The notes beneath the pieces were generated by a model that was not told the DNA's origin, made no database searches, and worked only from the letters and a program-made list of their open reading frames with translations. A stretch of 44,337 nt of DNA from an uncultured Bacteroidales bacterium. GTDB taxonomy: Bacteria; Bacteroidota; Bacteroidia; Bacteroidales; WCHB1-69. Position 1 is the first letter of the stretch; every line of letters starts with the position of its first letter. The position numbers and the translations under genes are program-made. The stretch spans positions 1 through 44,337 of the forward strand of contig CAMJXE010000015.1 of NCBI GenBank assembly GCA_946409645.1, given 5' to 3'. Below are positions 9,642 through 44,337 of this stretch, one piece after another.

Positions 9642-9673
9642 TAGTAAAGTACGAACATAAAGAAAGAGATTCA

Positions 9674-26885: not shown

Positions 26886-28152
26886 ACCTGAAAATCGTAC
26901 CTTCGCGATCGGGGCTAACCGAAACGATAGAGACTTTCGTATTTGTCTTATCCTCAATAAATTGAATGTAGTCCTTAAAGGTTTGTGGCAGTGATTCGTA
27001 GGTCTTGCAGTCGGAAATGTCCTCTCTCCAACCAGGCAGAGTGGTATAGACCGGCTCAATCTCCACATCGGTGGCGGAGGGCATGCGGTCGGTCAGCTCG
27101 CCATTCACGCGGTAGGCGGTGCAGACCTTGATTTCGTCCAATTTATCCAGCACGTCGGCTTTGGTGAGCGCGATGTCGGTCACGCCGTTGATCATCAGCG
27201 CATACTGGAGTGCCACGAGGTCGAGCCATCCGCAACGTCTTGGTCTTCCTGTTGTTGCGCCGTATTCGTTGCCTTCTTTACGGAGAAATTCGCCCGTCTC
27301 GTCGAAGAGTTCGGTCGGGAATGGTCCGCTGCCCACGCGGGTGCAGTAGGCCTTCACAATGCCGAAGACACGGCCGGCGTAGTGTGGGGCCAGTCCCAAA
27401 CCGGTGAACGCACCGGCGGCGATGGTATTGGAAGAGGTCACAAACGGATATGCACCGAACTCCACGTCCAACAGCGTGCCCTGCGCACCTTCGGCCAGCA
27501 CGGATTTCTCTTCCGTAAGATATTGATTTACAATATATTCACTGTCAATAAACTGGAATTTGCGAATGGTCTCCAACGACTTGCGCCATTGGGCGTCCAA
27601 CTCGGCGAGCTTCGCTTCATAGTCGAAGTGGAAATTCTGCAAAATCTCGATATGCTCGTCGATTTTCTGCCGGTATTTGGTCTCGAAATCATGGGATTCG
27701 AGATCGCAGACCCGCAGACCCGTGCGGGCGATCTTGTCGGTATAGGTCGGTCCGATGCCCTTCAGCGTGGAGCCAATCTTCATGTTGCCCTTATGAGCTT
27801 CCTGCACGGCGTCGAGGAGCTTGTGCGTAGGCAGTATGAGGTGTGCCTTACGGGAGATATAGAGGTTGTCGGTCGGTGTTAAACCCATCTCTATCAACGC
27901 ATTTATCTCTTCCTCGAAGATAATCGGGTCAATAACCACACCGTTACCGATGATGTTGATTTTGCTTTTGTGGAAAATGCCTGATGGTATGATGTGCAAC
28001 ACATGCCGATGTCCGTTGAATTCTAAGGAATGCCCCGCATTGGGACCGCCCTGGAAACGCGCAATCACATCATACTTGGGTGTCAAAACATCCACAATTT
28101 TTCCTTTACCTTCATCGCCCCATTGCAGGCCGAGCAGAATGTCCATTTTCAT
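26884..28152 (-). CDS. purA: Adenylosuccinate synthetase
   Basis: From the ATG at 28152 the protein has 422 residues, the normal family length. It begins MKMDILLGLQWGDEGKGKIVD with the GDEGKGK phosphate-binding loop, then FQGGPNAGHSLEFNG (catalytic His), GIGPTYTDKIARTG, VLAEGAQGTLLD, YCTRVGSGPFPTEL and GATTGRPRRCGWLD. It makes adenylosuccinate from IMP, aspartate and GTP, the first step to AMP. The long upstream frame to 28608 is rejected because a -7 promoter element is at 28178-28185. The TldD-like gene follows after 25 bp. Confidence 0.97.
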   Translation of the reverse strand: MKMDILLGLQWGDEGKGKIVDVLTPKYDVIARFQGGPNAGHSLEFNGHRHVLHIIPSGIFHKSKINIIGNGVVIDPIIFEEEINALIEMGLTPTDNLYISRKAHLILPTHKLLDAVQEAHKGNMKIGSTLKGIGPTYTDKIARTGLRVCDLESHDFETKYRQKIDEHIEILQNFHFDYEAKLAELDAQWRKSLETIRKFQFIDSEYIVNQYLTEEKSVLAEGAQGTLLDVEFGAYPFVTSSNTIAAGAFTGLGLAPHYAGRVFGIVKAYCTRVGSGPFPTELFDETGEFLRKEGNEYGATTGRPRRCGWLDLVALQYALMINGVTDIALTKADVLDKLDEIKVCTAYRVNGELTDRMPSATDVEIEPVYTTLPGWREDISDCKTYESLPQTFKDYIQFIEDKTNTKVSIVSVSPDREGTIFR

Positions 28153-28177
28153 ATTTTCAGTCTTTCGAAAAACGGGG

Positions 28178-28185
28178 CAAAGATA
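28178..28185 (-). promoter_or_regulatory. Promoter -7 element of purA
   Basis: TATCTTTG followed by CCCCG on the minus strand, 26 bp before the ATG at 28152. It fixes the purA start. Confidence 0.65.
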
Positions 28186-28233
28186 CAAATTTTTGGCGAG
28201 ATTGATACCGTAAGATTGCATGTAGAATATTTG

Positions 28234-28241
28234 TACTTTTG
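28234..28241 (+). promoter_or_regulatory. Promoter -7 element of the TonB-dependent receptor
   Basis: TACTTTTG followed by CCGCCG, 14 bp before the ATG at 28255. It excludes an in-frame start at 28030, which would lie inside purA. Confidence 0.6.
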
Positions 28242-28254
28242 CCGCCGATTTGCA

Positions 28255-30315: not shown

Positions 30316-30349
30316 GAATTTTAAACATTTTATGTTTTAAAAAAAAGAC

Positions 30350-30357
30350 TATTTTTG
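30350..30357 (+). promoter_or_regulatory. Promoter -7 element of the cysteine-rich lipoprotein
   Basis: TATTTTTG followed by CGCC; the ATG at 30401 is 43 bp downstream after an A-rich leader typical of Bacteroidota translation starts. Confidence 0.65.
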
Positions 30358-30400
30358 CGCCACAAAATTTCAAATTAGAAACAAATTAAAAAAAGAAAAA

Positions 30401-30892
30401 ATGAAGAAACTTATGATCTTAGTGGCAGCTGCTTGCTGTCTGACATTCACCGCTTGCAACAACAACAAGCCCGCTGAAAAACCCGCTGAATGCACTGAAA
30501 CGCAGGCAGAAGGCCCTTGCTGCAAGGAAATGACCGAAGAGCAGAAGGCTGAAATGGAAGCTTGCAAGAAAGCTGCTGAAGATTGGCAGAATTGGGAAAA
30601 CATCACCGACGAACGCAAAGCCGAGTTGCTTGACCAACGCAAAGCCAAATACGATGAAATGCAGGCTATGAAGAAAGCTCAGGAAGAGAAGAAAGCTAAA
30701 TTTGAAGCTGCTATGCTCAATTGGGATAAGCTCTCTCTCGATGACAAGAAGGCCGCTTTCGACGAAATGGGCTGCTGTGGTGGCTGCAAGAAAGGCGAAG
30801 GCAAAGGTTGCTGCAAAGGCGACAAAAAAGGTTGCCAAAAAGGCGAAGGCCACGGCTGCAAGAAAGAAGGCGGTTGTCCTGACAAAAAGTAA
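30401..30892 (+). CDS. Cysteine- and lysine-rich lipoprotein, possible metal binder
   Basis: The 163-residue protein has a lipoprotein signal with FTAC (lipidated Cys19). The mature part has a charged helical middle (about residues 45-120, rich in Lys, Glu, Ala) with two short repeats built around W-x-N-W/LNWDK and x-x-DERKAEL/LDDKKAAFD. The last 40 residues carry eight cysteines (125, 126, 129, 137, 138, 145, 153, 159) and His151 among Gly and Lys: CCGGCKKGEGKGCC and CKKEGGC. This pattern suggests binding of a soft metal such as copper or zinc. No known family was recognised. It is three bases before purN and likely shares its transcript. Confidence 0.75.
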   Translation: MKKLMILVAAACCLTFTACNNNKPAEKPAECTETQAEGPCCKEMTEEQKAEMEACKKAAEDWQNWENITDERKAELLDQRKAKYDEMQAMKKAQEEKKAKFEAAMLNWDKLSLDDKKAAFDEMGCCGGCKKGEGKGCCKGDKKGCQKGEGHGCKKEGGCPDKK

Positions 30893-30895
30893 TCC

Positions 30896-31462
30896 ATGAA
30901 GAAGATTGCCGTATTCGCCAGTGGCTTCGGCTCTAATTTCCAAGCCATTATCGAGGCTGTTGAGTGCCGCAAGCTGAACGCTGAAATAGCCCTGCTGGTA
31001 TCCGACAAACCTTCATGCAAAGCAGTAGAACGCGCCAGTGCCCATGGCATTGACGCGTTCACTTTTTGTGCGAAGGAGTATGCTGACAAGGCCGCATACG
31101 AACAGGCAGTATTAGACGAACTGCGTAAACGCGAAATCGACTATATCGTGCTGGCTGGCTATATGCGCATCATCGGGAAGACTCTGTTAGAAGCCTATCC
31201 TATGCACATCATCAACCTGCACCCCGCCCTGCTGCCCTCGTTTCCAGGCGCGCACGGCATCGCTGACGCTTACAACTATGGGGTGAAAGTCTTCGGCATC
31301 ACCATCCATTTTGTCGATGAAGGGGTTGATACTGGCAAAATCATCGACCAATTCTCCTTCCATGTGGAGGAAAACGACACATTAGAGACCATCGAAACGA
31401 AAATCCACCAATTGGAACATCAACATTTCCCGCTGACCATCGGGTCGGTGATTGGGAAATAA
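30896..31462 (+). CDS. purN: Phosphoribosylglycinamide formyltransferase (GART, folate-dependent)
   Basis: The 188-residue protein has the PurN signature: KKIAVFASGFGSNFQAI at the start, DYIVLAGYMRIIG, the catalytic INLHPALLPSFPGAHGI (Asn, His) and GITIHFVDEGVDTGKII with the catalytic Asp. It transfers a formyl group from 10-formyltetrahydrofolate to GAR, step three of purine synthesis. It follows the cysteine-rich lipoprotein gene by three bases, an unusual partnership with no obvious functional reason. Confidence 0.97.
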   Translation: MKKIAVFASGFGSNFQAIIEAVECRKLNAEIALLVSDKPSCKAVERASAHGIDAFTFCAKEYADKAAYEQAVLDELRKREIDYIVLAGYMRIIGKTLLEAYPMHIINLHPALLPSFPGAHGIADAYNYGVKVFGITIHFVDEGVDTGKIIDQFSFHVEENDTLETIETKIHQLEHQHFPLTIGSVIGK

Positions 31463-31496
31463 ACAGTTATTTTTCCCCTAAATAGAGAAAATTTCG

Positions 31497-31562
31497 GGTT
31501 TCAGGTTTCAAGATTCAGGTCTTGTAACTTATGTGAAACTTGAAACCTGAATCTTGAAACTA
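31497..31562. repeat. Inverted repeat between convergent purN and the symporter gene
   Basis: GTTTCAAGATTCAGGT (31505-31520) and its perfect complement (31545-31560) form a 16-bp stem with a 24-nt loop. The element is built from GAAACCT/GAATCTT-like units as at 26859. Placed between two convergent genes, it could act as a bidirectional terminator; a T run is present on the plus side (31566-31571). Confidence 0.6.
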
Positions 31563-31569
31563 AAGTTTT

Positions 31570-33213
31570 TTACCAGAACACCGCATAAACCACCACTAAC
31601 AGCACTAAAATGGCATACGCGGCAATGTGAAAATCAGGCTTCGTCTTGAACATGCTGCCAGTCAATGCTATGCCTTTTGGATCATCTTCGTTCTCGCAAG
31701 TGCACAAGCTCACCATCACGATGATGGCTATTGTGAGCAGACAGGTGTAAAACATCTGGTCGATGAACGGCATATCGATAGGCAGAAACTTGAGTGCCAG
31801 TGCGATAGGGATGGAAAGAATCACGCCCGTAATGGCGCCTTTGTTGGTAGTCTTCTTCCAGAAAAGTCCTAACAAGAAGAGCGCGAGGATGCCAGGACTC
31901 ACCAATCCCGTGTATTCCTGAATGTACTGGAACATCTGACCCACACTGCCGAGTAGCGGGGCAATCAATATGGCGATAATGAGGAAAAGTCCGGCGGAAA
32001 TTTGGCCAACCAGCACTAAACTGACATCTTTGCCCGTCTTTTCCTTCACCTTGGGGGCAATGTAGGGCTTATAAATGTCCATCGTGTAAATGGTGGAAGC
32101 GGAGTTGAGCATAGAGGCTAACGAAGAGATGATGGCAGCGGCTAACGCAGCAAGTACCAGCCCTTTGAGTCCAGTCGGAATGAAGGTGCTGATCAGCCAT
32201 GGATAGGCATTGTCGTTGTTAAGGGCGCCGTTGGTCTTGGTGAGAGCCTCCACCGCACCAAAGTTGCCCTCGGTGTACATCACGTAGGCGACGATGCCGG
32301 GGATAACCACGATGAAGGGGATGAGCAGCTTCAAGAACGCCGCAAAAGCCAGACCCTTCTGCGCTTCGGGCAGCGACTTGGCGGCAAACGCCCGCTGGAT
32401 GATGTACTGATTGAACCCCCAATAGTAGAGGTTGGCGACCCACAGTCCACCGATGAGCATGGCAATGCCGGGCAAATTGTGGTATTCGGGGTTGTCTTTG
32501 GGCAGAATCAGATGCATACGGTCGCCTGCTGCGTTGGTGAGATGCTGGATACCCTGCATGATAGTGCCGTCGGGACTGATGAGCTGCAGCGCGACCACCG
32601 TGGTGATAAGGCCGCCGAGTACGAGCAGGATGACTTGCAGAATGTCGGTCCACGCTACGGAAGAGAGGCCGCCGGTGATGGAGTAGAGGGCGGCGATAAG
32701 ACCCAATCCAATGATAGCGGGGATGATGAGCGAGTCATCGCCGGTGCCAATGATGGTATCAATGGCTTCGGCACCGAGGTAGAGCACGGAGGTGAGGTTC
32801 ACGAAGATGAACAGACCAAGCCAAAAAACAGCGAGAATGGTTTTAAGGTTCTGGGAAAACCGTTTTTCAACAAATTCGGGGATAGTGTAGATGCCTTGTT
32901 TCACAAACACGGGCATGAAGAACTTAGCCACGATAATGAGGGTAAGCGCGGCCATGAACTCGTAGGAGGCCACCGCGAAACCACCCGCGAAGCCCGACCC
33001 GGACATCCCGATGAACTGCTCCGCCGAGATGTTGGCGGCAATCAGCGATGCACCTATCGTCCACCAAGGCAGCGACTTGCCCGCGAGAAAATAGTCCTCT
33101 GCGGTCTTGTCCTTATTCTTCTTCCGATGGGAAATCCAGATGCCTAATCCAACAATAATCACTATATACGCGGCGAAGATAATGATGTCTAAGGTATGAA
33201 ATGCGGGGTTCAT
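31570..33213 (-). CDS. Sodium/sugar symporter, vSGLT-like (SLC5 family)
   Basis: The 547-residue protein has about 14 membrane segments and stretches closely resembling the Vibrio sodium/galactose transporter: AEDYFLAGKSLPWWTIGASLIAANISAEQFIGMSGSG, GIYTIPEFVEKRF, KTILAVFWLGLFIFVNLTSVLYLGAEAI and YYWGFNQYIIQRAFAAKSL. It imports a sugar, probably galactose or glucose, driven by sodium. The galactokinase at the right of the window supports galactose. It has its own promoter (33238-33245) and is convergent with purN. Confidence 0.94.
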   Translation of the reverse strand: MNPAFHTLDIIIFAAYIVIIVGLGIWISHRKKNKDKTAEDYFLAGKSLPWWTIGASLIAANISAEQFIGMSGSGFAGGFAVASYEFMAALTLIIVAKFFMPVFVKQGIYTIPEFVEKRFSQNLKTILAVFWLGLFIFVNLTSVLYLGAEAIDTIIGTGDDSLIIPAIIGLGLIAALYSITGGLSSVAWTDILQVILLVLGGLITTVVALQLISPDGTIMQGIQHLTNAAGDRMHLILPKDNPEYHNLPGIAMLIGGLWVANLYYWGFNQYIIQRAFAAKSLPEAQKGLAFAAFLKLLIPFIVVIPGIVAYVMYTEGNFGAVEALTKTNGALNNDNAYPWLISTFIPTGLKGLVLAALAAAIISSLASMLNSASTIYTMDIYKPYIAPKVKEKTGKDVSLVLVGQISAGLFLIIAILIAPLLGSVGQMFQYIQEYTGLVSPGILALFLLGLFWKKTTNKGAITGVILSIPIALALKFLPIDMPFIDQMFYTCLLTIAIIVMVSLCTCENEDDPKGIALTGSMFKTKPDFHIAAYAILVLLVVVYAVFW

Positions 33214-33237
33214 TCTTTGACGATTTTAAATTTGGGG

Positions 33238-33245
33238 CAAAAGTA
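33238..33245 (-). promoter_or_regulatory. Promoter -7 element of the sodium/sugar symporter
   Basis: TACTTTTG followed by CCCC on the minus strand, 25 bp before the ATG at 33213. Confidence 0.6.
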
Positions 33246-33313
33246 CGATTTTTTAAGCAATAGACAATTGGCAAAAGGAAATAGACCACGGCTCACGCGC
33301 TCCCTTTTATGAT

Positions 33314-34504
33314 CTAATATTGACCTTTGGCGGATTTTGATTTTTTTTCTGAAAAACATGCCATTCCTGAAATGATTCCAAGAATCAGGAAAATCATTAA
33401 AAATGGGTGCTTTAGGAAAACATTGCTGATGTTATGTGCCATTTCATCTGTCATCGGAACAGACAGTCTTTCAGTTCGCACCATTTGTTGTTCACCCGGA
33501 ATGTCGAAGGTAAGAGTGGCAACGTCTGCACGCACTTCCATGGTGACGGGTGCGCCCATTACGAGCGGCAGGTTTAGTTTTTCGTGTCCGGCAGGGAAGC
33601 CGCAAAGCAATGGGATGTTGTACGGTGCAATGAACTCGCGCAGCATCGCTTCCGTGCTCTCATAGCCGACATCATTTTCACAATCAGTGAAGTCACCCAG
33701 GACAACACCCTTGCAGTGGGCAAGCACACCGCTCATTTTCAGAATGTTGAAAAGGCGGTCGATGTTATGGTGAGTCTCCTCCACTTCCTCCACGAAGAGG
33801 ATGATATCAGACTTTCCTATAGCATCGGCCTGAGTGCCGATCAGTGGGACGAGTGTGGCAAGATTACCGCCCACGAGGGTGCCTGTCGCCATACCAAGGA
33901 TGTTCTCTTTATGGGCGGGCAATTCGTAGCGCGGCGCCTGACCTTTGAGCAAATCGCGCAGCAACGAGCAAGATTGTCCTGTACTGTCAGGCTTAGCAAT
34001 GTTGCAACCCATCACGCCGTGAATACCCATCACACCCGCGCAAGCATCCATACTGAGAAGCGTGGTAATATCACTATAGCCAATCAGCCATTTCGGGGAA
34101 GCTGCAAATTCCTTTAATGACAAATCTTCCACCAACTGCAAGGTGCCATAACCGCCGCGCAAACAGAGGATGGCCTTGATGTCGGGGTCAGCGAGTGCCC
34201 AGCGGAGGTCGGTGAGTCGCTCGTCCACGGTTCCGGCATAGTGTTCCAAATACTGTTTACCGACATTCGGCCCGATGACCGGCACATACCCCCAACAGCG
34301 CAGTGTGTCTGCCGCTTGGCAAGCCGTCTCCATTGAACAGTAGTACGATGGGGAGATGAGCGCCACTTTGTCACCCGGTTTCAAGTAGGCAGGAGCCACA
34401 CACTTGAGCGGCATCTTCGGTCCCGCAGCCTTCACGATGGGCATCAAGACAAAAAAGCACAGTATCATGAATGCGATTCGATACGGAAATATGTTTCTGT
34501 TCAT
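33314..34504 (-). CDS. S66 family LD-carboxypeptidase, exported
   Basis: From the ATG at 34504 (preceded by AAAGAA) the product has 396 residues with an N-terminal hydrophobic segment (FMILCFFVLMPIVKA). S66 motifs are AILCLRGGYGTLQLVEDL, the nucleophile region WLIGYSDITTLL, VGGNLATLVPLIGT, LFVEEVEETHHNIDR (catalytic Glu) and LLCGFPAGHEKLNLPLVMG (catalytic His). It cleaves the L,D-bond of murein tetrapeptides during peptidoglycan recycling or turnover. Unusually it ends with a second membrane segment (HPFLMIFLILGIISGMACF) and a basic tail, so both ends may be anchored in the inner membrane. Confidence 0.93.
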   Translation of the reverse strand: MNRNIFPYRIAFMILCFFVLMPIVKAAGPKMPLKCVAPAYLKPGDKVALISPSYYCSMETACQAADTLRCWGYVPVIGPNVGKQYLEHYAGTVDERLTDLRWALADPDIKAILCLRGGYGTLQLVEDLSLKEFAASPKWLIGYSDITTLLSMDACAGVMGIHGVMGCNIAKPDSTGQSCSLLRDLLKGQAPRYELPAHKENILGMATGTLVGGNLATLVPLIGTQADAIGKSDIILFVEEVEETHHNIDRLFNILKMSGVLAHCKGVVLGDFTDCENDVGYESTEAMLREFIAPYNIPLLCGFPAGHEKLNLPLVMGAPVTMEVRADVATLTFDIPGEQQMVRTERLSVPMTDEMAHNISNVFLKHPFLMIFLILGIISGMACFSEKKSKSAKGQY

Positions 34505-34589
34505 TTCTTTATCATTTAGATGGCAAAAGCAAGATTGATTATGCAAGGGAACAAACTATAATGATGGCACGTAGCAGTCTCCTCATGCG

Positions 34590-35579
34590 CTACCGGCCTT
34601 CCACAAACTTCAAGATATCCTCCTCGCCGTAAGCAGCCGAGGTGATGCGGCGTAGCTCCTTGCCGTCCTCGAAAAGAATGACGACCGGGATGGTCATGCA
34701 GTCGTATTCTTGGGCGATGGCGCGACAGCGGTCGATATCCACCTTAATGAAACGGTAACCTTTGCCAAGCTGTTTGGCCACGTTTTCCAACCGCGGGTAC
34801 ATCAGTCGGCAGGGACCGCACCAAACGGCGGTGAACATGCAGACAGTCTTGCCTTTCGCAATTGCCTTGCGGAAACCGGCGGAATCCACCTCTTCAATCC
34901 GTTCGGAATACACTGGGGCATAAAGTCCTGTGGTGTCGCCGCTAATCACGGGATTGCCGTCGGCATCGATACTCATCCATATAGAACCCTCTTTACCAGG
35001 GACGGCAAACAGCGCGTCATCGACCTCACCCGCCACCACGGACACCAACTCGCTGACGGTCTCCATCATCCGCCCTTTCATCTCCATCCGCGTTACGGTG
35101 CGCACGGGCAAACCGAGACCATATTGGGACGCAATGTGATAGGAGGTGTCAAGCCAAATGGTGACCTTCCCCTCCATTGCCCCGTAGTCGCTATCAGTGG
35201 TGATGCGAAGACAATGATGACCCGCAATATCCTCAGTGGGAATCGATTCATCAAACATTTCACCTGACAGAATCTCTGCATCGAAATCGAAACTGCTTAC
35301 AATGGGTTTGCCCATCATGCTCATGATACTATACATTTTCTTCTCTCCGGAGAGATAGAGCGTCCGCATTTTGTTGTGTGGCATGTCGGTCATCTGGTCG
35401 TGGCCGCGGTAATATACCGTATATGTCTGTGCCGCCGCACCATTCATTGACATTTTGTAGGTGACCACGCCGTTGAACAACTCCTGCGCCGAAATCTGAT
35501 GCGTTGCAGCGGTCAGCAGCCAAATCGCCCCCACCAAGATAATGCTAATTATTTTCATTGTACTAAAATACTTATTCAT
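34590..35579 (-). CDS. Exported protein with C-terminal thioredoxin domain
   Basis: The 329-residue protein has a signal peptide ending QISAQ; the second Met (at 35558) gives a tighter signal sequence and may be the true start. Residues ~35-215 form a beta-rich domain (ELFNGVVTYKMSMNG, MYSIMSMMGKPIVSSFDF, DIAGHHCLRI) reminiscent of DUF4412-like exported proteins. The C-terminal ~110 residues are a thioredoxin domain with the active site FTAVWCGPCRLMYP, the KVDIDRCRAIAQEYDC strand and the cis-proline MTIPVVILF. It likely reduces or isomerises disulfides in the periplasm. It follows the small membrane protein by 14 bp and precedes the carboxypeptidase gene by 85 bp. Confidence 0.88.
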   Translation of the reverse strand: MNKYFSTMKIISIILVGAIWLLTAATHQISAQELFNGVVTYKMSMNGAAAQTYTVYYRGHDQMTDMPHNKMRTLYLSGEKKMYSIMSMMGKPIVSSFDFDAEILSGEMFDESIPTEDIAGHHCLRITTDSDYGAMEGKVTIWLDTSYHIASQYGLGLPVRTVTRMEMKGRMMETVSELVSVVAGEVDDALFAVPGKEGSIWMSIDADGNPVISGDTTGLYAPVYSERIEEVDSAGFRKAIAKGKTVCMFTAVWCGPCRLMYPRLENVAKQLGKGYRFIKVDIDRCRAIAQEYDCMTIPVVILFEDGKELRRITSAAYGEEDILKFVEGR

Positions 35580-35593
35580 AGAGAATTGTCACA

Positions 35594-35893
35594 CTAACGC
35601 TTGGCGATACGGCGGACTGGAATGCCTATGGCTATGAGAAGAACCATCAGTACAAGCAACTGAAAAAAGAACATGGCCGTCTCGTTGGTGATATACGGCG
35701 AGAACCATTTCTCCGTCAAATGCATGCATGGCACCACCATAAGACCGCTAAATACGGCTGTGAGATATGATTTTGTCCGGACTTCTTTGCCCTCTTCCCG
35801 AAGTTTATTATTGCGGATTTCGACATAGAGAAAATAGGCAAAGCCTACCATTCCAATTAAAAGCAGGACGATGTAAATAACTGTTTTCCACAT
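35594..35893 (-). CDS. Small membrane protein of unknown function
   Basis: The 99-residue protein has three hydrophobic segments: TVIYIVLLLIGMVGFAYFLYV (3-24), YLTAVFSGLMVVPCM (44-58) and MFFFQLLVLMVLLIAIGIPV (75-94), with basic ends. I do not recognise a family. It lies 23 bp past the stop of the galK fragment and 14 bp before the thioredoxin gene, all leftward, so it may be part of one transcript. Confidence 0.65.
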   Translation of the reverse strand: MWKTVIYIVLLLIGMVGFAYFLYVEIRNNKLREEGKEVRTKSYLTAVFSGLMVVPCMHLTEKWFSPYITNETAMFFFQLLVLMVLLIAIGIPVRRIAKR

Positions 35894-35916
35894 AACTATA
35901 TACTATTGATATACTA

Positions 35917-36177
35917 TTAACTTCTAACTTCCCTTGCTCCGTCGCCGATCTCCGCCACATAGAAATCCGCACGCAAGCCGAAACGCTCTTCGTACGCGCG
36001 GCCGAGACTTTCGATAAACGCATTTACTTGATCGTCAGAGATTAACGTTACTGTGCAGCCGCCGAAGCCCGCGCCGGTCATGCGGCTGCCAAGCACGCCG
36101 GGGAACTGCTGCGCCCGTTCGGCCAAGAAGTCCAGTTCGGGACAGGTGACCTCGTAGTCGTCGCGAAGAGTGGCATG
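35917..36177 (-). pseudogene. 3' fragment of galactokinase (galK)
   Basis: The frame HATLRDDYEVTCPELDFLAE runs through the GHMP motif 3 GSRMTGAGFGGCTVTLI to GLRADFYVAEIGDGAREVRS and a stop. It equals the last 86 codons of the galK at 43388 and nothing of the N-terminal 300 residues. No start codon or in-frame extension exists: a TGA lies six codons before the fragment begins. The block 36053-36165 differs from 43533-43645 at only two positions, while flanking parts are far more divergent. It is a displaced galK end that marks the left edge of an accessory region. Confidence 0.9.
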
Positions 36178-36200
36178 CCGCGTCTCGGATTTTCAGGGGG

Positions 36201-36208
36201 CAAAGGTA
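36201..36208 (-). promoter_or_regulatory. Promoter -7 element upstream of the galK fragment
   Basis: TACCTTTG followed by CCCCC on the minus strand, directed into the galK fragment and the membrane protein and thioredoxin genes beyond. It may be the current promoter of that leftward unit. Confidence 0.5.
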
Positions 36209-36285
36209 CGATTTTTTAGGTTTTATTTTTCCAAAGTATCTGATATTCTTCTCTTTAACATAGCATAGCGGTATTTTTCACGCGG

Positions 36286-36374
36286 CAAAAATACACTTTT
36301 TCAAACGAAAAAACACTCTGTCGCTACATTTTTTCCAACGAATAATTACTGTTGCGTCGCACTTTTTCCAACGA
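36286..36374 (-). promoter_or_regulatory. Three 33-bp-spaced direct repeats next to a leftward promoter
   Basis: On the minus strand TCGTTGGAAAAA or TCGTTTGAAAAA begins at 36374, 36341 and 36308, exactly 33 bp apart. The last copy runs into TATTTTTG (36293-36286), a -7 element. The arrangement looks like an operator array or a decaying tandem repeat. A hairpin GTATTTTT/AAAAATAC also overlaps the -7 element (36271-36293). No gene starts directly after it; the next frame leftward is the galK fragment. Confidence 0.45.
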
Positions 36375-36440
36375 TGGGAAGACACCCACATTGCGATCTA
36401 CGGCAACACGTTCAGTCTTATGGGGACTTCTAATTATTTC

Positions 36441-36450
36441 TTTCTGATTA
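36441..36450. repeat. Possible left terminal inverted repeat of the IS remnant
   Basis: TTTCTGATTA here is repeated in inverted form at 37339-37348, just after the transposase stop. The match is ten bases and could be chance. No target duplication was identified. Confidence 0.25.
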
Positions 36451-36577
36451 ACAGCTTCTTATGAGCTAAAATCCGCTGAAAACGACACCCGAAATCTCCG
36501 TTTCGGTCAACTTGCGACAGATGAACCTTTTATGGTGAAAATTTCTCGCAACCCATTGTCATTCAAAGAATTATTTG

Positions 36578-36585
36578 TATATTTG
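36578..36585 (+). promoter_or_regulatory. Promoter of the IS5-type transposase remnant
   Basis: TATATTTG (-7) is preceded by TTG at 36556-36558 with 19 bases between, which matches the full Bacteroidota promoter spacing. The transposase ATG at 36605 is 20 bp downstream. Confidence 0.6.
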
Positions 36586-36604
36586 CCGCAAATTAGAAAG
36601 GACA

Positions 36605-37338
36605 ATGAATCAGACCAAACAAACAGCAAGGTAACGTCGGGCTTTTCGACAGCGACGAGACAATGGAGAAACTCAACAAGTTGGGCAATCCTTTGGACAA
36701 ACTCTCAAAAGCGGATTTACCATCTCAGCGACCCGCAGGCGGAATACCAGATCCGCGACAGGCTCTCGTTCCGCGACTTCCTCGGACTGGCCAGCGGCGA
36801 CAAGGTGCCCGACGAGAAAACAATATGGGCTTTCAAGGAGGAATTGACAAAGAAAGGTCTTTTTGGGCAATTGTTCAATGAATTCTATGCTTTTCTGGAG
36901 GAGAACAACCTGATCTTGCATGAGGGCACCATGATAGACGGGAGCTTCGTGGAGGCACCGCGCCAGCACAACACACGCGAAGAGAACAAAATAATCAAGG
37001 AAGACAGGGGTGAGGATTTGTTCACCGACAGTGCCTACATCGACAAAGGGGTGAAGAGGGTGATGCGGAAGTTCGGGATGAAGGACAAGGTGATCAAGCG
37101 GAACACCAGAGGCAAGAAAATCAGCAAATGGCAGGAGACCACCAACAGGAAGAACTCGAAGCTGCGCGTGAGGGTGGAACATGTGTTCGGGTTCATGGAA
37201 GAGTGCCTTCACGGAATGTCCAGCCGTGTGGTCGGTTTTGCGCGGAACGCGGCCTACAACACCCTGACAAACCTGGTCTACAACCTGTGCCGGTACGAGC
37301 AAGTAATGCGTCTTGGAATGAATATAATAACTAATTGA
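36605..37338 (+). pseudogene. Decayed IS5-family transposase
   Basis: The ATG at 36605 gives MNQTKQTAR and then a stop; skipping one A restores NVGLFDSDETMEKLNKLGNPLDKLSK, so there is a +1 frameshift near 36620. A second break removes the helical segment between LSKAD and the downstream YHLSDPQAEYQIRDRLSFRDFLG. The first catalytic Asp is present (MIDGSFVEAPRQHNTREEN), but a further internal deletion removes the stretch between KEDRG and LFTDSAYIDK, so normal spacing of the DDE triad is lost. The third acidic region VRVEHVFGFMEE and the end remain. It is a non-functional IS5-group transposase. Confidence 0.85.
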
Positions 37339-37348
37339 TAATCAGAAA
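37339..37348. repeat. Possible right terminal inverted repeat of the IS remnant
   Basis: TAATCAGAAA is the inverse of 36441-36450 and begins directly after the transposase stop. Support is limited to ten bases. Confidence 0.25.
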
Positions 37349-37420
37349 CATATCGCCCCCCTAAAAAGAAAAATAATCAAAAAACAGACCGAACTAAAAG
37401 AATATTATGTAAATTTTGTT

Positions 37421-37428
37421 TATTTTTG
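37421..37428 (+). promoter_or_regulatory. Promoter -7 element upstream of the SLC13 permease
   Basis: TATTTTTG followed by CGGC, 121 bp before the GTG start at 37549. The long leader contains a small hairpin TGCAAATC...GGTTTGCA (about 37433-37450). Confidence 0.5.
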
Positions 37429-37548
37429 CGGCTGCAAATCTAAGGTTTGCAGCGTCATATTTTCAGATTTTGTTCAACAGACCTCGCATGGTCTGGAGGT
37501 ATGGCGCGAAAATGGTAAAAATAGAGGTCCCCATAAGTAAAAGAAGTA

Positions 37549-39348
37549 GTGGAATCATTCATATTTTTGGGCTTTGGCATTGACGCCTGGATTACCATCG
37601 CGACGGTGTTGGGTGTATTCATAGTGCTGATGACCACCAAACTGCGCAGCGACCTGGTGTTTCTCGCCGCCATCGGACTGTTGTTCGTCACGGGGGTGCT
37701 CGATGCCGACGAAGCATTCTCCGGCTTTAGTTCCTCGACAGTGGTTGTGGTGGGTGTAATGTCTGTTGTGGTGGCCGGTCTGACATACACAGGAGTCTTG
37801 CATTGGATAACCAAGTATCTGTTGGGGCGTCCGAAAGATTACAAGAGGGTCTTGTTGCGGGTGATGACACCCGTGGCAGTGCTGTCGCCGCTGCTGAACA
37901 CGGTCACGGTAGTGTCCGTATTTGTCGGCGTTGTCAAGATGTGGGCAAAAAAGCTGCAGATGACGCCTTCGCGGCTCCTTATCCCTATTGCCTTTGCGAG
38001 CAATATGGGAGGGGTGTGCCTCATACTTGTGATTCCGCAAAACCTGGTGGTCAGCGGCTTCTACGAGAGCAATACGGGACATACCATGGGGGTGCTGGCT
38101 CCGGCCATTCCCGGTATGTTCGGCCTGCTGGCGGGGATGCTGACGATCATCGCATTGCGCCGTCTGTTGCCAGAGCGCAAGTCGCCTGAGTCGGTTTTTG
38201 AATCGACAGGCGACTACACGGTGGAACTGCTTGTGCCTTCCGACAATCCGCATATTGCAAGAGAGGTGGGCGAACTGGGTCTGAACAATGTGGTTGGGGG
38301 GAGTCTCGTAGAGCTGCGCCATTTCGACGACTACAGGATTATGTCGCCCGTTCCAGACAGGGAACCGCTGATGGGGGGCGACCGTTTGGTGTATGCCGGA
38401 CAAATTGAAGAGCTGCTGGAAGTGAAGAAGAAATACGGTCTGGTGAATGCCGACCATCATGTGTTCCACTACAGCGAGGTGAGCCGCGACCGGCAGCTGC
38501 GCACGGCACACATCACTTTCGGAAGCAGCCTGATCAACACCAAGATAGGTGATGGCACTTTTGAGCGCGACAATAACGTCACCCTCGTCGCTGTAGCCCG
38601 CAAGGGCAAACGTATAGAGCAGGCGCCGAGGGAGGTGGTGCTTCAAGTCGGCGACACGTTGCTCTTGGAATGTGCGCCGAACATGAAAATAGATACCTCC
38701 GCGCTCGGTCAGCATTTGCAGTTTTTTGACTCTGCCGACGTGCCCAACATCGGGCGGCGCACCATCGTCTCCATCGCCATCGTCTCCGTCATGGTGGCTC
38801 TGACTATTTCCGGTGTGATGCCCTTGCTGCAGAGCGCCTTTATTGCCGCAGGTGCCATGCTCATCTGCCGTTGTTGCTCTCCGAAGCAGGCCATGGAAGC
38901 CATCGACTGGAGCCTTCTGGCATTGATTGCCGGCAGCATCGTGCTCGGAGTGGCCATTCAAAAGACAGGTATTGCAGACTGGATGGCACAAGGCATCCTG
39001 AGCATCAGCGGCAGCAATCCTCTGATTGTGATGGTTGCTGTTTGCCTGGCGGCCGCTGTCATTACGGAGTTCCTGTCCATCACAACGGTGGCCGCCATCA
39101 TCGCCCCCATCATGTATTCAGCCGCCATACAGTTAGGGTATGAGCCGTTGCCATTCCTTATCGCCTTGATTATGGCGGCCAACAGTTCTTTTGTCACGCC
39201 TATCGGCTCGGCCGTGAACATGCTGGTCTATGGTCCCGGCGGTTACCACTTCAGCGATTTCATCCGCATCGGTCTGCCGGTGAAACTCGCGTTTCTCATA
39301 GTCAGCATCCTCATGGTCATCATCATATATCCATTAACACCGCTGTAA
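37549..39348 (+). CDS. SLC13/DASS family permease with two RCK_C domains
   Basis: The 599-residue protein begins with GTG at 37549 (stop in frame at 37534). N-terminal membrane segments contain MTTKLRSDLVFLAAIGLLFVTGVLDADEAFSGFSSSTVVVVG, the DASS start pattern, and LLNTVTVVSVFVGVV. Residues ~220-400 hold two TrkA-C/RCK_C domains (YTVELLVPSDNPHIAREVGEL; THITFGSSL...NNVTLVAVARKG). The C-terminal membrane half has LLALIAGSIVLGVAIQKTGIADW, ITEFLSITTVAAIIAPIMY and ANSSFVTPIGSAVNMLVYGPGGY, the second substrate signature. Family members move dicarboxylates, sulfate or other anions with sodium or protons. Substrate here is unknown; a hydroxy- or keto-acid would fit the neighbouring genes. Confidence 0.9.
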   Translation: MESFIFLGFGIDAWITIATVLGVFIVLMTTKLRSDLVFLAAIGLLFVTGVLDADEAFSGFSSSTVVVVGVMSVVVAGLTYTGVLHWITKYLLGRPKDYKRVLLRVMTPVAVLSPLLNTVTVVSVFVGVVKMWAKKLQMTPSRLLIPIAFASNMGGVCLILVIPQNLVVSGFYESNTGHTMGVLAPAIPGMFGLLAGMLTIIALRRLLPERKSPESVFESTGDYTVELLVPSDNPHIAREVGELGLNNVVGGSLVELRHFDDYRIMSPVPDREPLMGGDRLVYAGQIEELLEVKKKYGLVNADHHVFHYSEVSRDRQLRTAHITFGSSLINTKIGDGTFERDNNVTLVAVARKGKRIEQAPREVVLQVGDTLLLECAPNMKIDTSALGQHLQFFDSADVPNIGRRTIVSIAIVSVMVALTISGVMPLLQSAFIAAGAMLICRCCSPKQAMEAIDWSLLALIAGSIVLGVAIQKTGIADWMAQGILSISGSNPLIVMVAVCLAAAVITEFLSITTVAAIIAPIMYSAAIQLGYEPLPFLIALIMAANSSFVTPIGSAVNMLVYGPGGYHFSDFIRIGLPVKLAFLIVSILMVIIIYPLTPL

Positions 39349-39384
39349 TAAATAGATGAGCATAAGTAGTTTACATATTGGACG

Positions 39385-39457
39385 CGAGACTGCGAGACGC
39401 GGGACTACGGGTCATTGGCTTGACTCGAAGTCCCGAAGTCCCGTGTCCCGAAGTCAA
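39385..39457. repeat. GGGACT/AGTCCC repeat cluster with hairpin
   Basis: CGGGACTACGGGTCA (39400-39414) pairs with TGACTCGAAGTCCCG (39421-39435) at 13 of 15 positions, and further GAAGTCCC/GTGTCCC units follow. It lies between the permease and the aminotransferase. It is another of the short-period intergenic repeats in the window. No T run follows, so a terminator is doubtful. Confidence 0.5.
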
Positions 39458-39520
39458 AATAATGCAGTATAATTTTGAACGGTTACTTAACCGTGAAAGT
39501 TGAAAGTTAAAAGTTGAATT

Positions 39521-40747
39521 ATGAGTATCACAATAGAGCCAACGGCGACACCAAGCCTGTCCCGACGCAGCAAGCCTGATTTCCAGTCCCAGTTTCTCGT
39601 CACCATTCTCAAGGCGAACACCAATCCGAATCTGGTCACCTTTGCCGGCGGCAACCCGAATTCCGCGTCCTTTCCGGTGTCGGAGATGAATGTCGCAGCC
39701 GATGGCGTCCTTCAGGAAAACGGATTCGCGGCATTGCAATACAGCGGCACACAAGGGTATCTCCCGCTTCGACAGTACATTGCTGACCGATATCGCACTT
39801 CAGGGCTCAATGTCGAGCCCGCCGAGGTCATCGTCACAAACGGCTCCCAGCAGGCACTGGACATCTTCTCCGCCATGATGATCGACCCGGGCGACCGCGT
39901 CCTGGTTGAGAATCCGACCTATCTTGCCGCTCTGCAGACATTTCATCTGTATGAGCCGGAGATCGTACCTGTTCCGCTCCGCGAAGACGGCATCGACCCC
40001 CACGCCTTGCGGAGGGCTGTCGACGAAAAGCGCCCGAAATTCGCCTATTTGATTCCGAACTTCCAGAACCCCACTGGCCTGAGCTATTCTGAAAGACTTC
40101 GTTCCGAGGTATCGGATATCTTCCGTGGGCGCGATATCCTTGTATTGGAGGATAATCCCTACGGCGACCTGCGCTTTCGGGGCGAGCCTGCGCACAGCTT
40201 CGGCTGGTACCTCGGCGAGCAATGCTGTATGCTGGGTACCTTCTCCAAAATCGTGTCACCGGGCCTTCGGATTGGCTGGATCGTCTGCAAGCAAAAGAAT
40301 CTCCTTGAGAAAATGCTCGTCTACAAGGCCACATTGGATTTGCACACCAACATCTTTGGCCAAATGGTGTTGCATCGCTATCTGACAGACAACGACCTGG
40401 ACGTTCACCTTGCGGAGATAAGACGACTCTACAAACACAAGTCGGAATATATGATTGCCTGTATCGAGAAATATTTCCCCGCAGGCTGCCGCTGCACACA
40501 TCCCGATGGCGGCATGTTCCTCTGGGTCACGCTGCCCGACGGGGTTCGGGGCATCGACGTGCAGCGCGAGTCCATCAACCGGGGCTTTGCCGTCTGCGCG
40601 GGCGACCCGTTCTACGAATACGAACGGAACGTTCCGCACATCCGGCTCAACTTCTCAAATGGTTCGGACGAACAGATTGACAGCGGTATGCGCGTCGTCG
40701 GCGAGGTCATCAAACAATTGTTGAATCGTTATCAAACCAACAAATAA
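39521..40747 (+). CDS. PLP-dependent aminotransferase, class I/II (Aro8/LysN-like)
   Basis: The 408-residue protein has the fold-type I pattern: FAGGNPNSASFPV near the N-terminus, LQYSGTQGYLPLRQYIADRY, VTNGSQQALDIFSAMMIDPGD, NPTGLSYS with Asn183, LEDNPYGDLRF with Asp211, the PLP lysine Lys243 in GTFSKIVSPGLRIGW and the late substrate arginine HIRLNFSNGSDEQI. These match 2-aminoadipate and aromatic or branched-chain aminotransferases of the Aro8/LysN group (also the catalytic half of MocR regulators, but here there is no DNA-binding domain). It converts an amino acid to its 2-oxoacid. It is followed after 14 bp by a 2-hydroxyacid dehydrogenase. Confidence 0.93.
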   Translation: MSITIEPTATPSLSRRSKPDFQSQFLVTILKANTNPNLVTFAGGNPNSASFPVSEMNVAADGVLQENGFAALQYSGTQGYLPLRQYIADRYRTSGLNVEPAEVIVTNGSQQALDIFSAMMIDPGDRVLVENPTYLAALQTFHLYEPEIVPVPLREDGIDPHALRRAVDEKRPKFAYLIPNFQNPTGLSYSERLRSEVSDIFRGRDILVLEDNPYGDLRFRGEPAHSFGWYLGEQCCMLGTFSKIVSPGLRIGWIVCKQKNLLEKMLVYKATLDLHTNIFGQMVLHRYLTDNDLDVHLAEIRRLYKHKSEYMIACIEKYFPAGCRCTHPDGGMFLWVTLPDGVRGIDVQRESINRGFAVCAGDPFYEYERNVPHIRLNFSNGSDEQIDSGMRVVGEVIKQLLNRYQTNK

Positions 40748-40761
40748 ACAGTTAAACAGTC

Positions 40762-41724
40762 ATGAGTCATTCGCTTGTAGTAGTTGTTCCGGAATTGAGA
40801 GCAGAACACTCCGCAAGGCTGCAGAAGGCAGCCGCCAGGTTCGGGTTTGAATGTCACATTTGCAGCAACAGCGCACAAAGCCGAAGGTTCCTGCCCGAGG
40901 CTGAGGTAATCCTGAGTGCGGATCATTCTCTTGCAGGTCATGCTCCGAAACTAAAGTGGATGTGTTCACACTTTGCTGGAGTTGATCCTTTTCTGAAGGA
41001 GGGTGTCTTCGCCAGTCCGGAAGCTATTCTTTCTAATTCCTCCGGCGCTTATGGCGTTACCCTCTCAGAGCATATCGTCATGCTTTTGCTGGAAATCCTT
41101 AGGCGGAATCCGGAGTACCAGAGAAATATTCAAAAGCGTACTTGGATTCGCCGCCTTCCAATCCGTTCCATTTATGGAAGCCGCATCCTGATGCTGGGTA
41201 CAGGAGATATCGGGCAGGAGGCATGCAGGCGACTCAGGGCCTTTGAGCCGAGCGTCATAAAGGGAGTCAATCTTCACGGAATCAATCCGGGCAATCTGTT
41301 TGACCAGGTGCAAACTCCCGAGAAGCTGGATTCCTTACTTGCAGACACAGACCTCATGATAATATCCCTTCCCGGAACAAAAGCGACCTTTCACTTGATT
41401 TCAACCCCGCAGCTCCGCCTCCTGCCTGATCATGCCGTTATCATCAATGTAGGCAGGGGTACTGTGCTTGATCAGGCAGCACTCGAGGAAGAACTGCAGA
41501 ATGGACGTCTCTATGCGGGGCTGGATGTATTCGAGAACGAGCCTCTCTCCGCAGAAAGCGTGCTTTGGGACAGCCCGAGAGCCGTCATTACTCCCCACGT
41601 TGCCGGAGACACTTCACTCCCTCACACTGTTGACAGAATTGTAAATCTCTTTCTGGAGGATTTTGAGAACTACTGTACTGGAAAATCTCTCCTGCGGCAG
41701 ATTGACAGGTCGATAGGGTACTGA
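40762..41724 (+). CDS. D-isomer-specific 2-hydroxyacid dehydrogenase
   Basis: The 320-residue protein has the NAD(P)-binding GTGDIG at residues 146-151 and the catalytic triad Arg232 (NVGRGTVLD), Glu260 (DVFENEPL) and His279 (ITPHVAGDT). Position and spacing match 2-hydroxyacid dehydrogenases of the GhrA/hydroxypyruvate-reductase kind. It reduces a 2-oxoacid to a D-2-hydroxyacid or the reverse. It lies 14 bp after the aminotransferase and most likely shares its transcript, so the two could interconvert an amino acid and a D-hydroxyacid through the oxoacid. A terminator follows. Confidence 0.93.
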   Translation: MSHSLVVVVPELRAEHSARLQKAAARFGFECHICSNSAQSRRFLPEAEVILSADHSLAGHAPKLKWMCSHFAGVDPFLKEGVFASPEAILSNSSGAYGVTLSEHIVMLLLEILRRNPEYQRNIQKRTWIRRLPIRSIYGSRILMLGTGDIGQEACRRLRAFEPSVIKGVNLHGINPGNLFDQVQTPEKLDSLLADTDLMIISLPGTKATFHLISTPQLRLLPDHAVIINVGRGTVLDQAALEEELQNGRLYAGLDVFENEPLSAESVLWDSPRAVITPHVAGDTSLPHTVDRIVNLFLEDFENYCTGKSLLRQIDRSIGY

Positions 41725-41796
41725 GAGTTAAAAACCTGACAGCAGGGTCTCGATTTCATCTTTAACGAGAAGTAGGCAATACCGCCGAGAGAGAAT

Positions 41797-41844
41797 ATCC
41801 GCCGAGACATCGATTTCAGATGTGCCCTGCGGATGCTTTTTTTT
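41797..41844 (+). terminator. Rho-independent terminator after the dehydrogenase
   Basis: ATCCGC (41797-41802) pairs with GCGGAT (41829-41834), with an inner ACATC/GATGT stem, and is followed by eight T (41837-41844). It separates the aminotransferase-dehydrogenase unit from the acyltransferase-like gene. Confidence 0.65.
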
Positions 41845-41951
41845 ATCCGTTTGAGGTCTCAGTAAGAACTGAATAGCTTGGTAATATAAGAATGATGAAG
41901 ATGATGCCATGACGTGGTGATAGAAGATAATTATGAACAAGAACGAATAAT

Positions 41952-43241
41952 ATGGAGAAACTGTATTTCTTTGATGAGACATTCTACTGGAGTCGTTCCG
42001 GCAAACGGGCCACGGTGATAGAGGTGGAATGTGAGTTGATGCAAGACGTGCGCCCCGATGATCTGCGGGCGGCAGTGCTAAGCGCTCTGAGGACACACCG
42101 GAATTTCAGGGTTCGCCCGGTCATCGTGAACCGGAGATTCCTCGTGGAGACCATCGAGGTGGAGCAGGTCGCGGTGGTAAAGGAGGATGGAAAGCCTCGG
42201 CGCCTTGGCACCAAAGAGACAGAGTCCCTTATGCTCTATGTGTCTTACGGCGAGAGGCACTTCACGCTCCATGTGTTCCACGGAATTGCCGACATGCGGT
42301 CTATCTGCGCCTTCCTCAATACCGTCCTGTCGTTCTATTGTGGCATGGATGGTGACAACCCGCCTGCTGCTGACAGCATTGACACTTTCCCATGCCACGA
42401 GCACATCCTGCAAGGAGGCGCACCTGGAGAACCTGAGGGTAAGTTCATCCCGCAGGAGCACGACATTTTCCATCTGCCAGAAAAACTGTTCAGCAGCAGA
42501 ACCACACGGCAGCGCATCATCGACATCGACCTGCCACTCAAGCCGATTCTTGCCTTTGCCCGGGAGAACGGCAGCTCTGTGGTGCCAGCCCTGAACGCCG
42601 TTATATGCCGGGCCATCTGCCAGTGCTACGACGTGGGGCAGAAGGAGATAGTTTGCTACGTTCCCATCGACCTGCGTCCGGTGTTCCACTTCGAGTCCGG
42701 CGGCAATGCCGCAATCCCCTTTTCACTCCCTTATACAACAGAGACCGACCGTCTGTCTGTAGGTGAAAGGGCAAGGCGGCTGCGCATGGAGTTGGACGTG
42801 CAGACCAGGCCGGAGAACCTATATGCAACGGTAGCCGGGCTGCGGTCCGACTTCGACCAGTTTTTCTCCGCGCCCATGCCCATTCGGCTGACGTCGCCCC
42901 AGGTCGTCAAGAGCGGAAGAAAGAAAGATTCAGCCAACAATACCTACGGCTTATCCTACGCAGGGCATCTCGACTTCGGCGAAGCCGCAGCGCAGCAGGT
43001 GAAGACCGTGGGCATCAGTGCCGGATCCTATTCCTATCCGCTGTGGATCCTGGCCAGCGAGTATAAGGGCGTCATTCGCATGAGGCTCGTGCAGCCGTTT
43101 AAGAGCGACAGGTTGGCCACCGCCATCCATCAGGAATTTGCCGCACTCTTCCCCGGCACCTCCTATACAGACCGTGGATGCCATGATTTCGACTCGTTCC
43201 CCTTGGTTAGCGTTCTGCGTAAAGGCAATAAACAAGTATAA
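41952..43241 (+). CDS. Stand-alone condensation/acyltransferase-fold protein
   Basis: The 429-residue protein starts MEKLYFFDETFYWSRSGKRA and resembles the chloramphenicol-acetyltransferase-like superfamily that includes NRPS condensation domains and alcohol O-acetyltransferases. The active-site-like motif is HVFHGIADMRS (His110, Asp114), which keeps HxxxD but has Phe instead of the first His and Met instead of Gly of HHxxxDG. Later segments CYVPIDLRPVFHFESGGNAAI and YAGHLDFGEAAAQQV fit the second half of the fold. It could join an acyl group to an alcohol or amine. No carrier protein or adenylation gene is adjacent. It has its own unit behind a terminator; no promoter element was recognised. 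Confidence 0.7.
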   Translation: MEKLYFFDETFYWSRSGKRATVIEVECELMQDVRPDDLRAAVLSALRTHRNFRVRPVIVNRRFLVETIEVEQVAVVKEDGKPRRLGTKETESLMLYVSYGERHFTLHVFHGIADMRSICAFLNTVLSFYCGMDGDNPPAADSIDTFPCHEHILQGGAPGEPEGKFIPQEHDIFHLPEKLFSSRTTRQRIIDIDLPLKPILAFARENGSSVVPALNAVICRAICQCYDVGQKEIVCYVPIDLRPVFHFESGGNAAIPFSLPYTTETDRLSVGERARRLRMELDVQTRPENLYATVAGLRSDFDQFFSAPMPIRLTSPQVVKSGRKKDSANNTYGLSYAGHLDFGEAAAQQVKTVGISAGSYSYPLWILASEYKGVIRMRLVQPFKSDRLATAIHQEFAALFPGTSYTDRGCHDFDSFPLVSVLRKGNKQV

Positions 43242-43258
43242 CTCTTTAAACAAAAAAA

Positions 43259-43357
43259 ATGATGAGAAAAATCATGCAATGGGTGTTCGCCGCCACCATC
43301 GGCCGCAGCGCTTTCGCCGATTGCACCCACCGCAGCAATGCTGGCTTTTTATGTTAA
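43259..43357 (+). pseudogene. Truncated lipoprotein start
   Basis: The 32-codon frame MMRKIMQWVFAATIGRSAFA then DCTHRSNAGFLC ends at TAA. It has the look of a Bacteroides/Prevotella lipoprotein signal (positively charged start, hydrophobic core, Cys after Ala-Asp) but nothing follows, so it is likely the surviving 5' end of a larger gene that was cut where the island meets galK. It could also be a genuine small peptide. Confidence 0.4.
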
Positions 43358-43387
43358 AATGTTTCATTGTATGTCGATTATTTTCAT

Positions 43388-44337
43388 TCATAATTCTGCA
43401 TTCATAACCCCACCAGCTCCGTCCCCAATCTCCGCCACATAGAAGTCAGCACGCAAGCCGAATCTTTTCTCGTATGCCTTGCCGAGGGTTTCGACAAACG
43501 CCTCCACCTGATTTTCCGCAATCAATGTCACGGTGCAGCCGCCGAAGCCCGCGCCAGTCATGCGGCTGCCGAGCACGCCGGGGAACTGCTGCGCCCGTTC
43601 GGCCAAGAAGTCCAGTTCGGGACAGGTGACCTCGTAGTCGTCGCGCAGGGTGGCGTGCGAGGCGTTCATCAGCTGTCCGAAGCGGACCATGTCGCCGACC
43701 TTGAGCGCGGTGACGGCCCCGCGCACGTTCTCGTTCTCGCGCACCGCGTGCCGGGCGCGCTTGAGTACGTTGCCCGTAAGATATGGGGCAACCGTATCAA
43801 ACTGATCCATAGTGAGTTGACAGAGACAATCGACCGGTCGGTGCGCACGGATGATCTCCAACGCCTGCTGACACTCGCTGCGCCGCTGGTTGTAGGCCGA
43901 ATCCACGAGTCCGCGTTTCTTGTTGGTGTTGGCGATGACGAACTTCAGCCCGCGCATCTCCAACGGCACATGCTCGTACTCCAACGTATTGCAGTCCAAC
44001 GCGATAGCACAATTCTTCTTCCCGAACCCCGAGGCAAACTGGTCCATGATGCCGCAGTTCATCCCCACGAAGTCGTTCTCAGCGTGCTGGGCCATCTGCA
44101 CGAGCTCTAACATCGTGAACGGACTGCCGTTCAGGGCATTGAGAGCCACAGCGGTCACCATCTCGATGGAGGCCGAAGAGGAAAGCGCCGCCCCGATGGG
44201 CAGGTCGCCGCGGTAGTGGAACTGGAGACCGCTCACGGGAAATCCCCTGTCGGTGAACTCCTTGACCACGCCAAGCGGGTAATCCACCCAACTGTTCCGC
44301 TTCTGCGACAGTTCCTCCTTACGAATCAGAAATTCCG
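43388..44337 (-). CDS. galK: Galactokinase, 5'-truncated at the right window edge
   Basis: The frame is open to the window end (last codons read EFLIRKEELSQKRNSWVDYP), so the start lies beyond 44337; an internal GTG at 44287 is not the start. GHMP motif 2 is PIGAALSSSASIEM and motif 3 is GSRMTGAGFGGCTVTLI. NCGIMDQFASGFG contains the catalytic Asp region of galactokinases. It phosphorylates galactose to galactose-1-phosphate in the Leloir pathway. Its 3' end is duplicated at 35917-36177, 7.2 kb away in the same orientation. The sodium/sugar symporter at 31570 may be the matching transporter. Downstream of its stop there is island sequence, not the usual operon partner. Confidence 0.96.
   Translation of the reverse strand, partial: EFLIRKEELSQKRNSWVDYPLGVVKEFTDRGFPVSGLQFHYRGDLPIGAALSSSASIEMVTAVALNALNGSPFTMLELVQMAQHAENDFVGMNCGIMDQFASGFGKKNCAIALDCNTLEYEHVPLEMRGLKFVIANTNKKRGLVDSAYNQRRSECQQALEIIRAHRPVDCLCQLTMDQFDTVAPYLTGNVLKRARHAVRENENVRGAVTALKVGDMVRFGQLMNASHATLRDDYEVTCPELDFLAERAQQFPGVLGSRMTGAGFGGCTVTLIAENQVEAFVETLGKAYEKRFGLRADFYVAEIGDGAGGVMNAEL

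Follow-up and report, generated by a model that had tools for sequence, protein, structure and literature searches.

Why does the 3′ end of galK, the galactokinase gene, stand at both edges of a stretch of accessory DNA in an uncultured Bacteroidales bacterium? The question is raised by a 44,337-nucleotide contig (CAMJXE010000015.1), which is called the window here; it is the entire contig C15 of draft genome G000 (147 contigs; 95.87% complete; 4.75% contaminated). Here, we argue that the locus is very probably a tandem galK pair around accessory DNA, the left copy of which was cut by a deletion between short repeats, and that this island probably spread by homologous recombination without a dedicated integrase. 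The features that carry the argument are the following.

35917..36165, minus strand: left galK remnant, comprising the last ~83 codons and the stop codon with a 'B-type' 3′ tail; no in-frame start; pseudogene
36166..36178, minus strand: deletion scar, at which a 9-bp near-repeat (GTGGCATGC) fuses the galK interior to the start codon; 889 bp lost relative to genome G031
36179..36421, minus strand: upstream region of the left galK; 99% identity to genomes G031 and G006
41952..43241, plus strand: gene for a 429-amino-acid protein that belongs to no recognised family; present in each of the three islands discussed below
43388..44337, minus strand: right galK, comprising the 3′ ~4/5 of the gene with an 'A-type' tail; 5′ end on contig C74 of the same genome (G000:C74), positions 1 to ~216

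The first-pass annotation of this DNA, made from the sequence alone, had described a duplicated galK 3′ end, in the same orientation and 7.2 kb apart. Indeed, a galK protein query against the organism's own genome returns exactly two matches (43391-44335 and 35926-36183, both on the minus strand and both on C15), and the remnant (35917-36178) and the second galK (43388-44337) lie in direct orientation with ~7.2 kb of accessory DNA between them. The base-level alignment of the two ends, which the annotation had suggested as a check, spans 243 bp at 86% identity. The right copy had been called complete; it is in fact cut by the end of the contig and continues on G000:C74, which begins with the galK 5′ end. 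The first 8 bases of G000:C74 are the last 8 bases of C15, and when both contigs are placed on the right galK of G031, their overlap is these same 8 bases; G000:C74 also carries genes that are found upstream of galK in G020, G009, G013, and G012. The right copy, which is open as far as its sequence goes, presumably supplies galactokinase.

The genus comparison comprised 40 genomes, including the window's own, with one genome per species. Among 35 genus relatives, 19 have a galK match of at least 73% identity, and paired copies occur in only two of these, G006 (on C84) and G031 (on C43), which repeat the galK-pair architecture of the window; the island is therefore represented by three genomes, all drafts. 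On G031:C43, galK open reading frames of 391 and 394 amino acids flank the 429-amino-acid gene, and otherwise only an insertion sequence remnant lies between the copies. Relatives with two full tandem galK genes and the same genes between them were what the annotation had named as counting against its account: G031 supplies the two full genes and the 429-amino-acid gene, but a three-gene cassette present in the window is not there.

The left copy of G031 allows the history of the window's remnant to be read directly at its junction. Window positions 35753-36178 match the G031 left copy and the DNA downstream of it at 98.4% identity, and positions 36170-36560 match the G031 DNA running outward from the left copy's start codon at 99.2% identity. 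These two matches overlap by 9 bases, which read GTGGCATGC in the window, GTGGCGTGC in the galK interior, and GTGGCATGC at the galK start. At the scar, the window's remnant reads AAGAGTGGC, as against CAGGGTGGC or a near variant in the 22 other galK sequences covering the spot, and the 117-bp tail of the remnant is identical to that of the full-length left copy of G031. An identical truncation junction, contiguous through 36178, is found on G006:C84. These alignments indicate that the window's left galK was once complete and that it lost 889 bp between 9-bp near-repeats in its interior and at its start codon; this distance is not a multiple of three, and the reading frame was consequently lost. 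The upstream region (36179-36421) was kept, and parts of it recur upstream of galK in G019 and G020. Because G031 has the left copy at full length and the remnant retains its upstream region, the truncation is best read as the decay of a tandem paralogue, not as the trace of integration into a 3′ end.

How the island came to be shared is suggested by steps in sequence identity. Compared with G031 and G006, respectively, the window is 99.7% and 99.5% identical in the 429-amino-acid gene, 99.6% and 99.2% identical upstream of the left galK, and, at the left edge, 98.8% and 97.6% identical in the thioredoxin gene. Identity drops to 87.2% and 85.2% in the LD-carboxypeptidase gene (PF02016/PF17676), the left neighbour of the thioredoxin gene, and the body of the right galK stands at 94.4% over 692 bp with G031 and 90.2% over 163 bp with G006. 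For comparison, a SufBD-family gene is 93.5% identical to that of G031 (with no G006 match), a sodium:solute symporter gene is 86.2% identical to that of G006, and the stretch 26473-33254 is 88.7% identical to G006. A near-identical block bounded by steps to core-level divergence suggests recent transfer by homologous recombination, and across the three genomes compared, the island block has probably spread between species by this route. The annotation had seen no integrase in the interval, and this holds more widely: G000 carries three matches to the tyrosine recombinase family PF00589 (on C7, C28, and C14) and one to the serine recombinase family PF00239 (on C8), and none is on C15 or G000:C74.

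The annotation had also drawn attention to a 113-bp block that differs at two positions between the window's galK copies and is flanked by more diverged sequence, and had considered recombination between tandem galK paralogues plus gene conversion. The block has 2 mismatches, with 29 in the 117 columns on one side and 3 in the 13 columns on the other, and the clustering is real: when the 34 mismatches were shuffled 20,000 times across the 243 columns, a 113-bp stretch with two or fewer never arose. The contrast on the right does not survive, because the three mismatches there belong to the scar of the deletion (36166-36178) rather than to ordinary galK divergence. The contrast on the other side was compared between species over the 136 pairs formed by 17 single-copy-type galK genes (an eighteenth, from G015, was dropped, its contig ending in the block). 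On average, the pairs differ by 25.1% in the 3′ tail (43416-43532) vs 12.6% in the block; the eight pairs whose blocks are least diverged (1.8-2.7%) have tails that differ by 11-26%, with G005 and G013, for example, at 2.7% and 25.9%. Divergence at fourfold sites, from pairs of 13 orthologues, is 0.451 in the tail, 0.243 in the block, and 0.265 in the body. Since the same contrast appears between species in single-copy galK genes, the change at 43532/43533 is a genus-wide property of the gene, and conversion of the block between the window's copies is a needless assumption; as evidence of gene conversion, the block appears weak. The tandem paralogues of the annotation's second proposal are thus supported, and the conversion drawn from the block, though possible, is not required.

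Exchange between galK copies appears to be supported by other observations. On G031:C43, the two copies (14326-14871 and 17648-18193) share a 546-bp identical run, made up of the 5′ part and ~43 bases upstream, with 64 mismatches in the other 643 bp; this run could reflect gene conversion, recent exchange, or repeat collapse in metagenome assembly. On G006:C84 (9709-9966 and 12040-12456), the A and B tail types occupy the opposite positions to those in the window and G031: the tail of the G006 left remnant is 96.6% identical to that of the window's right copy, and the tail of the G006 right copy is 97.4% identical to that of the window's remnant.

Several observations weigh against a tandem pair that decayed by deletion and spread by homologous recombination. 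The truncation is common to G006 and the window, yet the tail types at the two positions are not, which requires either one deletion followed by exchange or two deletions at the same repeat. The 99-amino-acid membrane-protein gene beside the remnant is shortened in G031, by what appears to be another short-repeat deletion (35640-35752; the flanking matches overlap by 13 bp), and was not found at the corresponding place in G006. The contig ends inside the right galK in both the window and G006 and just upstream of it in G031, and the island is known from three draft genomes only. G031, with 6% contamination, has another galK contig (G031:C74) with a different left neighbourhood, and G031:C43 may come from a second strain; the genes to the left of the carboxypeptidase gene on that contig also differ from those of the window. 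Finally, the route of island transfer is what we infer from identity steps, not an event that was observed.

The accessory DNA between the copies comprises, in addition to the 429-amino-acid gene, an insertion sequence and a cassette of three genes.

36422..37532, plus strand: IS5-family insertion sequence, with ends GGGGAC (36422) and GTCCCC (37527) and a transposase open reading frame at 36532-37338
37538..41885, plus strand: cassette of three genes, with ATAAG on either side (37533-37537 and 41886-41890)
37549-39348, plus strand: CitMHS-type transporter gene (Pfam match above cut-off)
39521-40747, plus strand: class I/II aminotransferase gene (Pfam match above cut-off)
40762-41724, plus strand: D-2-hydroxyacid dehydrogenase gene (Pfam match above cut-off)

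The gene for the 429-amino-acid protein is present in three of the 40 genus genomes (the window's included), every time between galK copies. The protein has no match in Pfam up to an E-value of 10, none in NCBIfam up to 0.001, and chance-level matches only among PDB sequences. Besides G031 and G006, 22 loci in a collection of genome contigs encode relatives of it, at 71-83% identity over the best segment and with several cut by contig ends, and galK was not found in the retrieved flanks of these 22. The records are titled Prevotella, Segatella, Prevotellaceae, Bacteroidaceae, or Bacteroidales; judging from these titles, we take several of the hosts, like the window's genus, to be rumen organisms.

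The insertion sequence resembles known IS5-family elements in its transposase, which scores 146.4 bits against the NCBIfam IS5 model NF033581 (cut-off 140) and also matches PF05598 and PF01609 above their cut-offs, and in the GGGGAC/GTCCCC ends of the window's element. It differs from them in an internal deletion of the transposase, which is missing 243 bp (81 codons) that the G009 and G013 copies have, and in that no target-site duplication was seen, the flanks CTTAT and ATAAG being inverted, not direct. Five copies outside the three islands were compared: the left end GGGGAC is present in two (G009 and G063:C7), the right end GTCCCC in two (G062 and G063:C7), and the right end ATCCCC in two (G009 and G031:C28), with the G013 copy having neither end. 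At the galK locus, G031 and G006 retain just the two ends of the element. Parts of 36179-37537 are matched in 39 of the 40 genus genomes. The right end of the element (37446-37532, ~87 bp) occurs in at least 25 of the 40, often as an isolated match, and such isolated copies look like a short non-autonomous derivative.

Of the three genomes, the window's alone has the cassette at the galK locus; in G031 and G006, it is absent from the locus and the sequence there joins directly. The names of its genes follow the Pfam matches, the NCBIfam matches of all three being below cut-offs. The same three genes are found elsewhere, in G028, in G063, and on another G031 contig, where they are mutually 98.7-99.0% identical and share their context; these three genomes and the window's are the 4 of 40 with the aminotransferase gene at 99% identity or more. 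Against the G028 copy, the window's aminotransferase gene is 99.4% identical and its two neighbours, the transporter and dehydrogenase genes, 87-88%, and the cassette is therefore a recombination mosaic. The stretch of ~99% identity to G028 spans the aminotransferase gene and the gap upstream of it (39349-40747). The cassette was also considered as a transposon, but inspection of its ends by eye revealed no terminal inverted repeats, and no transposase lies within it. The 5-bp ATAAG repeat is compatible either with a duplication on insertion or with a deletion at microhomology in the lineages of G031 and G006.

Outside the galK pair, an open reading frame for an AAA/DUF4143 ATPase (309-1499, within the segment 229-1501 of G000:C74) lies directly upstream of the right galK. 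The segment has a 95.6% match at 8822-10095 in G013, there downstream of galK, and accessory genes have thus landed on both sides of galK. Scans for transfer RNA genes across the whole window and with Rfam at gathering scores over 30000-44337 gave no match.

Taken together, the order of events that we infer would begin with a fuller state, as in G031, in which two full galK genes enclose an insertion sequence remnant and the 429-amino-acid gene. A loss of 889 bp between the two 9-bp near-repeats would then have reduced the left galK to a non-functional 3′ remnant in the lineage of the window, with the internally deleted IS5-family copy sitting upstream of it. The three-gene metabolic operon would have been gained at, or lost from, the border of the insertion sequence, marked by the 5-bp repeat. 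The block would cross species by homologous recombination in its flanks, with galK on one side and the thioredoxin and LD-carboxypeptidase genes on the other.

A different origin of the two-galK state, tentatively possible but on balance unlikely, is single-crossover (Campbell-type) integration of a circle carrying a galK segment and the 429-amino-acid gene, instead of duplication in place. This alternative concerns the origin only, with the later decay being the same, and it overlaps with the reading preferred here. The tails within each of the three genomes differ at 25-29 of 117 positions, like the tails of different species, so that one copy may be foreign, and the right galK body shows near-core divergence between species vs a nearly identical inserted block. 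Against it, no plasmid or phage function was seen among the island proteins scanned, in which the transposase was the one mobility protein recognised; the two copies agree at all of the 50 bases around the start, which fits duplication equally.

We regard as improbable a further proposal, in which the galK copies act as portable homology arms and the accessory DNA leaves with galK at its ends, as a circle or a linear piece, to be taken up by RecA-type recombination at the one galK of a different species. If true, this would make galK a genus-wide docking gene without any integrase.

An assembly artefact, namely a chimeric join of galK strain variants in a metagenome bin, might be suspected in a contaminated draft of 147 contigs with a break inside galK, but it is highly improbable: the same order occurs in three assemblies, two of which match public records of different projects (CAMKLG010000043.1 and JAEEIG010000056.1), and the deletion junction is common to the window and G006. 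Least credible of all is the first proposal of the annotation, that an element integrated site-specifically at the 3′ end of galK and restored the gene with a galK 3′ end that it carried itself. This proposal has in its favour the direct-repeat geometry with a full gene at one edge and a 3′ fragment at the other, and it is contradicted by the fragment's retention of its own start-codon region and upstream DNA (36170-36421), by the full-length left copy of G031, by the lack of tyrosine or serine recombinase matches on C15 and G000:C74, and by a repeat that spans 243 bp with diverged tails, not a short core.

How does a tandem galK pair with a decayed left copy compare with known systems? Among the literature matches listed, no paper addresses tandem galK duplication with homologous recombination in Bacteroidales. 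Tandem gene duplication with decay of one copy is a known kind of event, and the locus conforms to it in having direct-orientation galK paralogues, one open and one truncated between short repeats; it differs in having an accessory gene, an insertion sequence, and a metabolic cassette between the copies. The locus also resembles the hotspots of Oliveira et al. (2017; PMC5635113): accessory genes lie between core genes, no integrase is found, contents vary between relatives, and the flanking identity step is consistent with cross-species exchange. This likeness rests on features of the locus, not on the paper's statistical definition, and at galK the flanking gene is itself duplicated on both sides.

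The pattern at galK is real, and the evidence suggests an ordinary cause: a gene was duplicated, one copy decayed, and recombination did the rest, with no need for a novel type of mobile element. The appearance of site-specific integration, with a gene's 3′ end at both edges, can come from tandem paralogues and a small deletion, and in uncultured Bacteroidales, accessory genes may cross species without visible mobile-element machinery.

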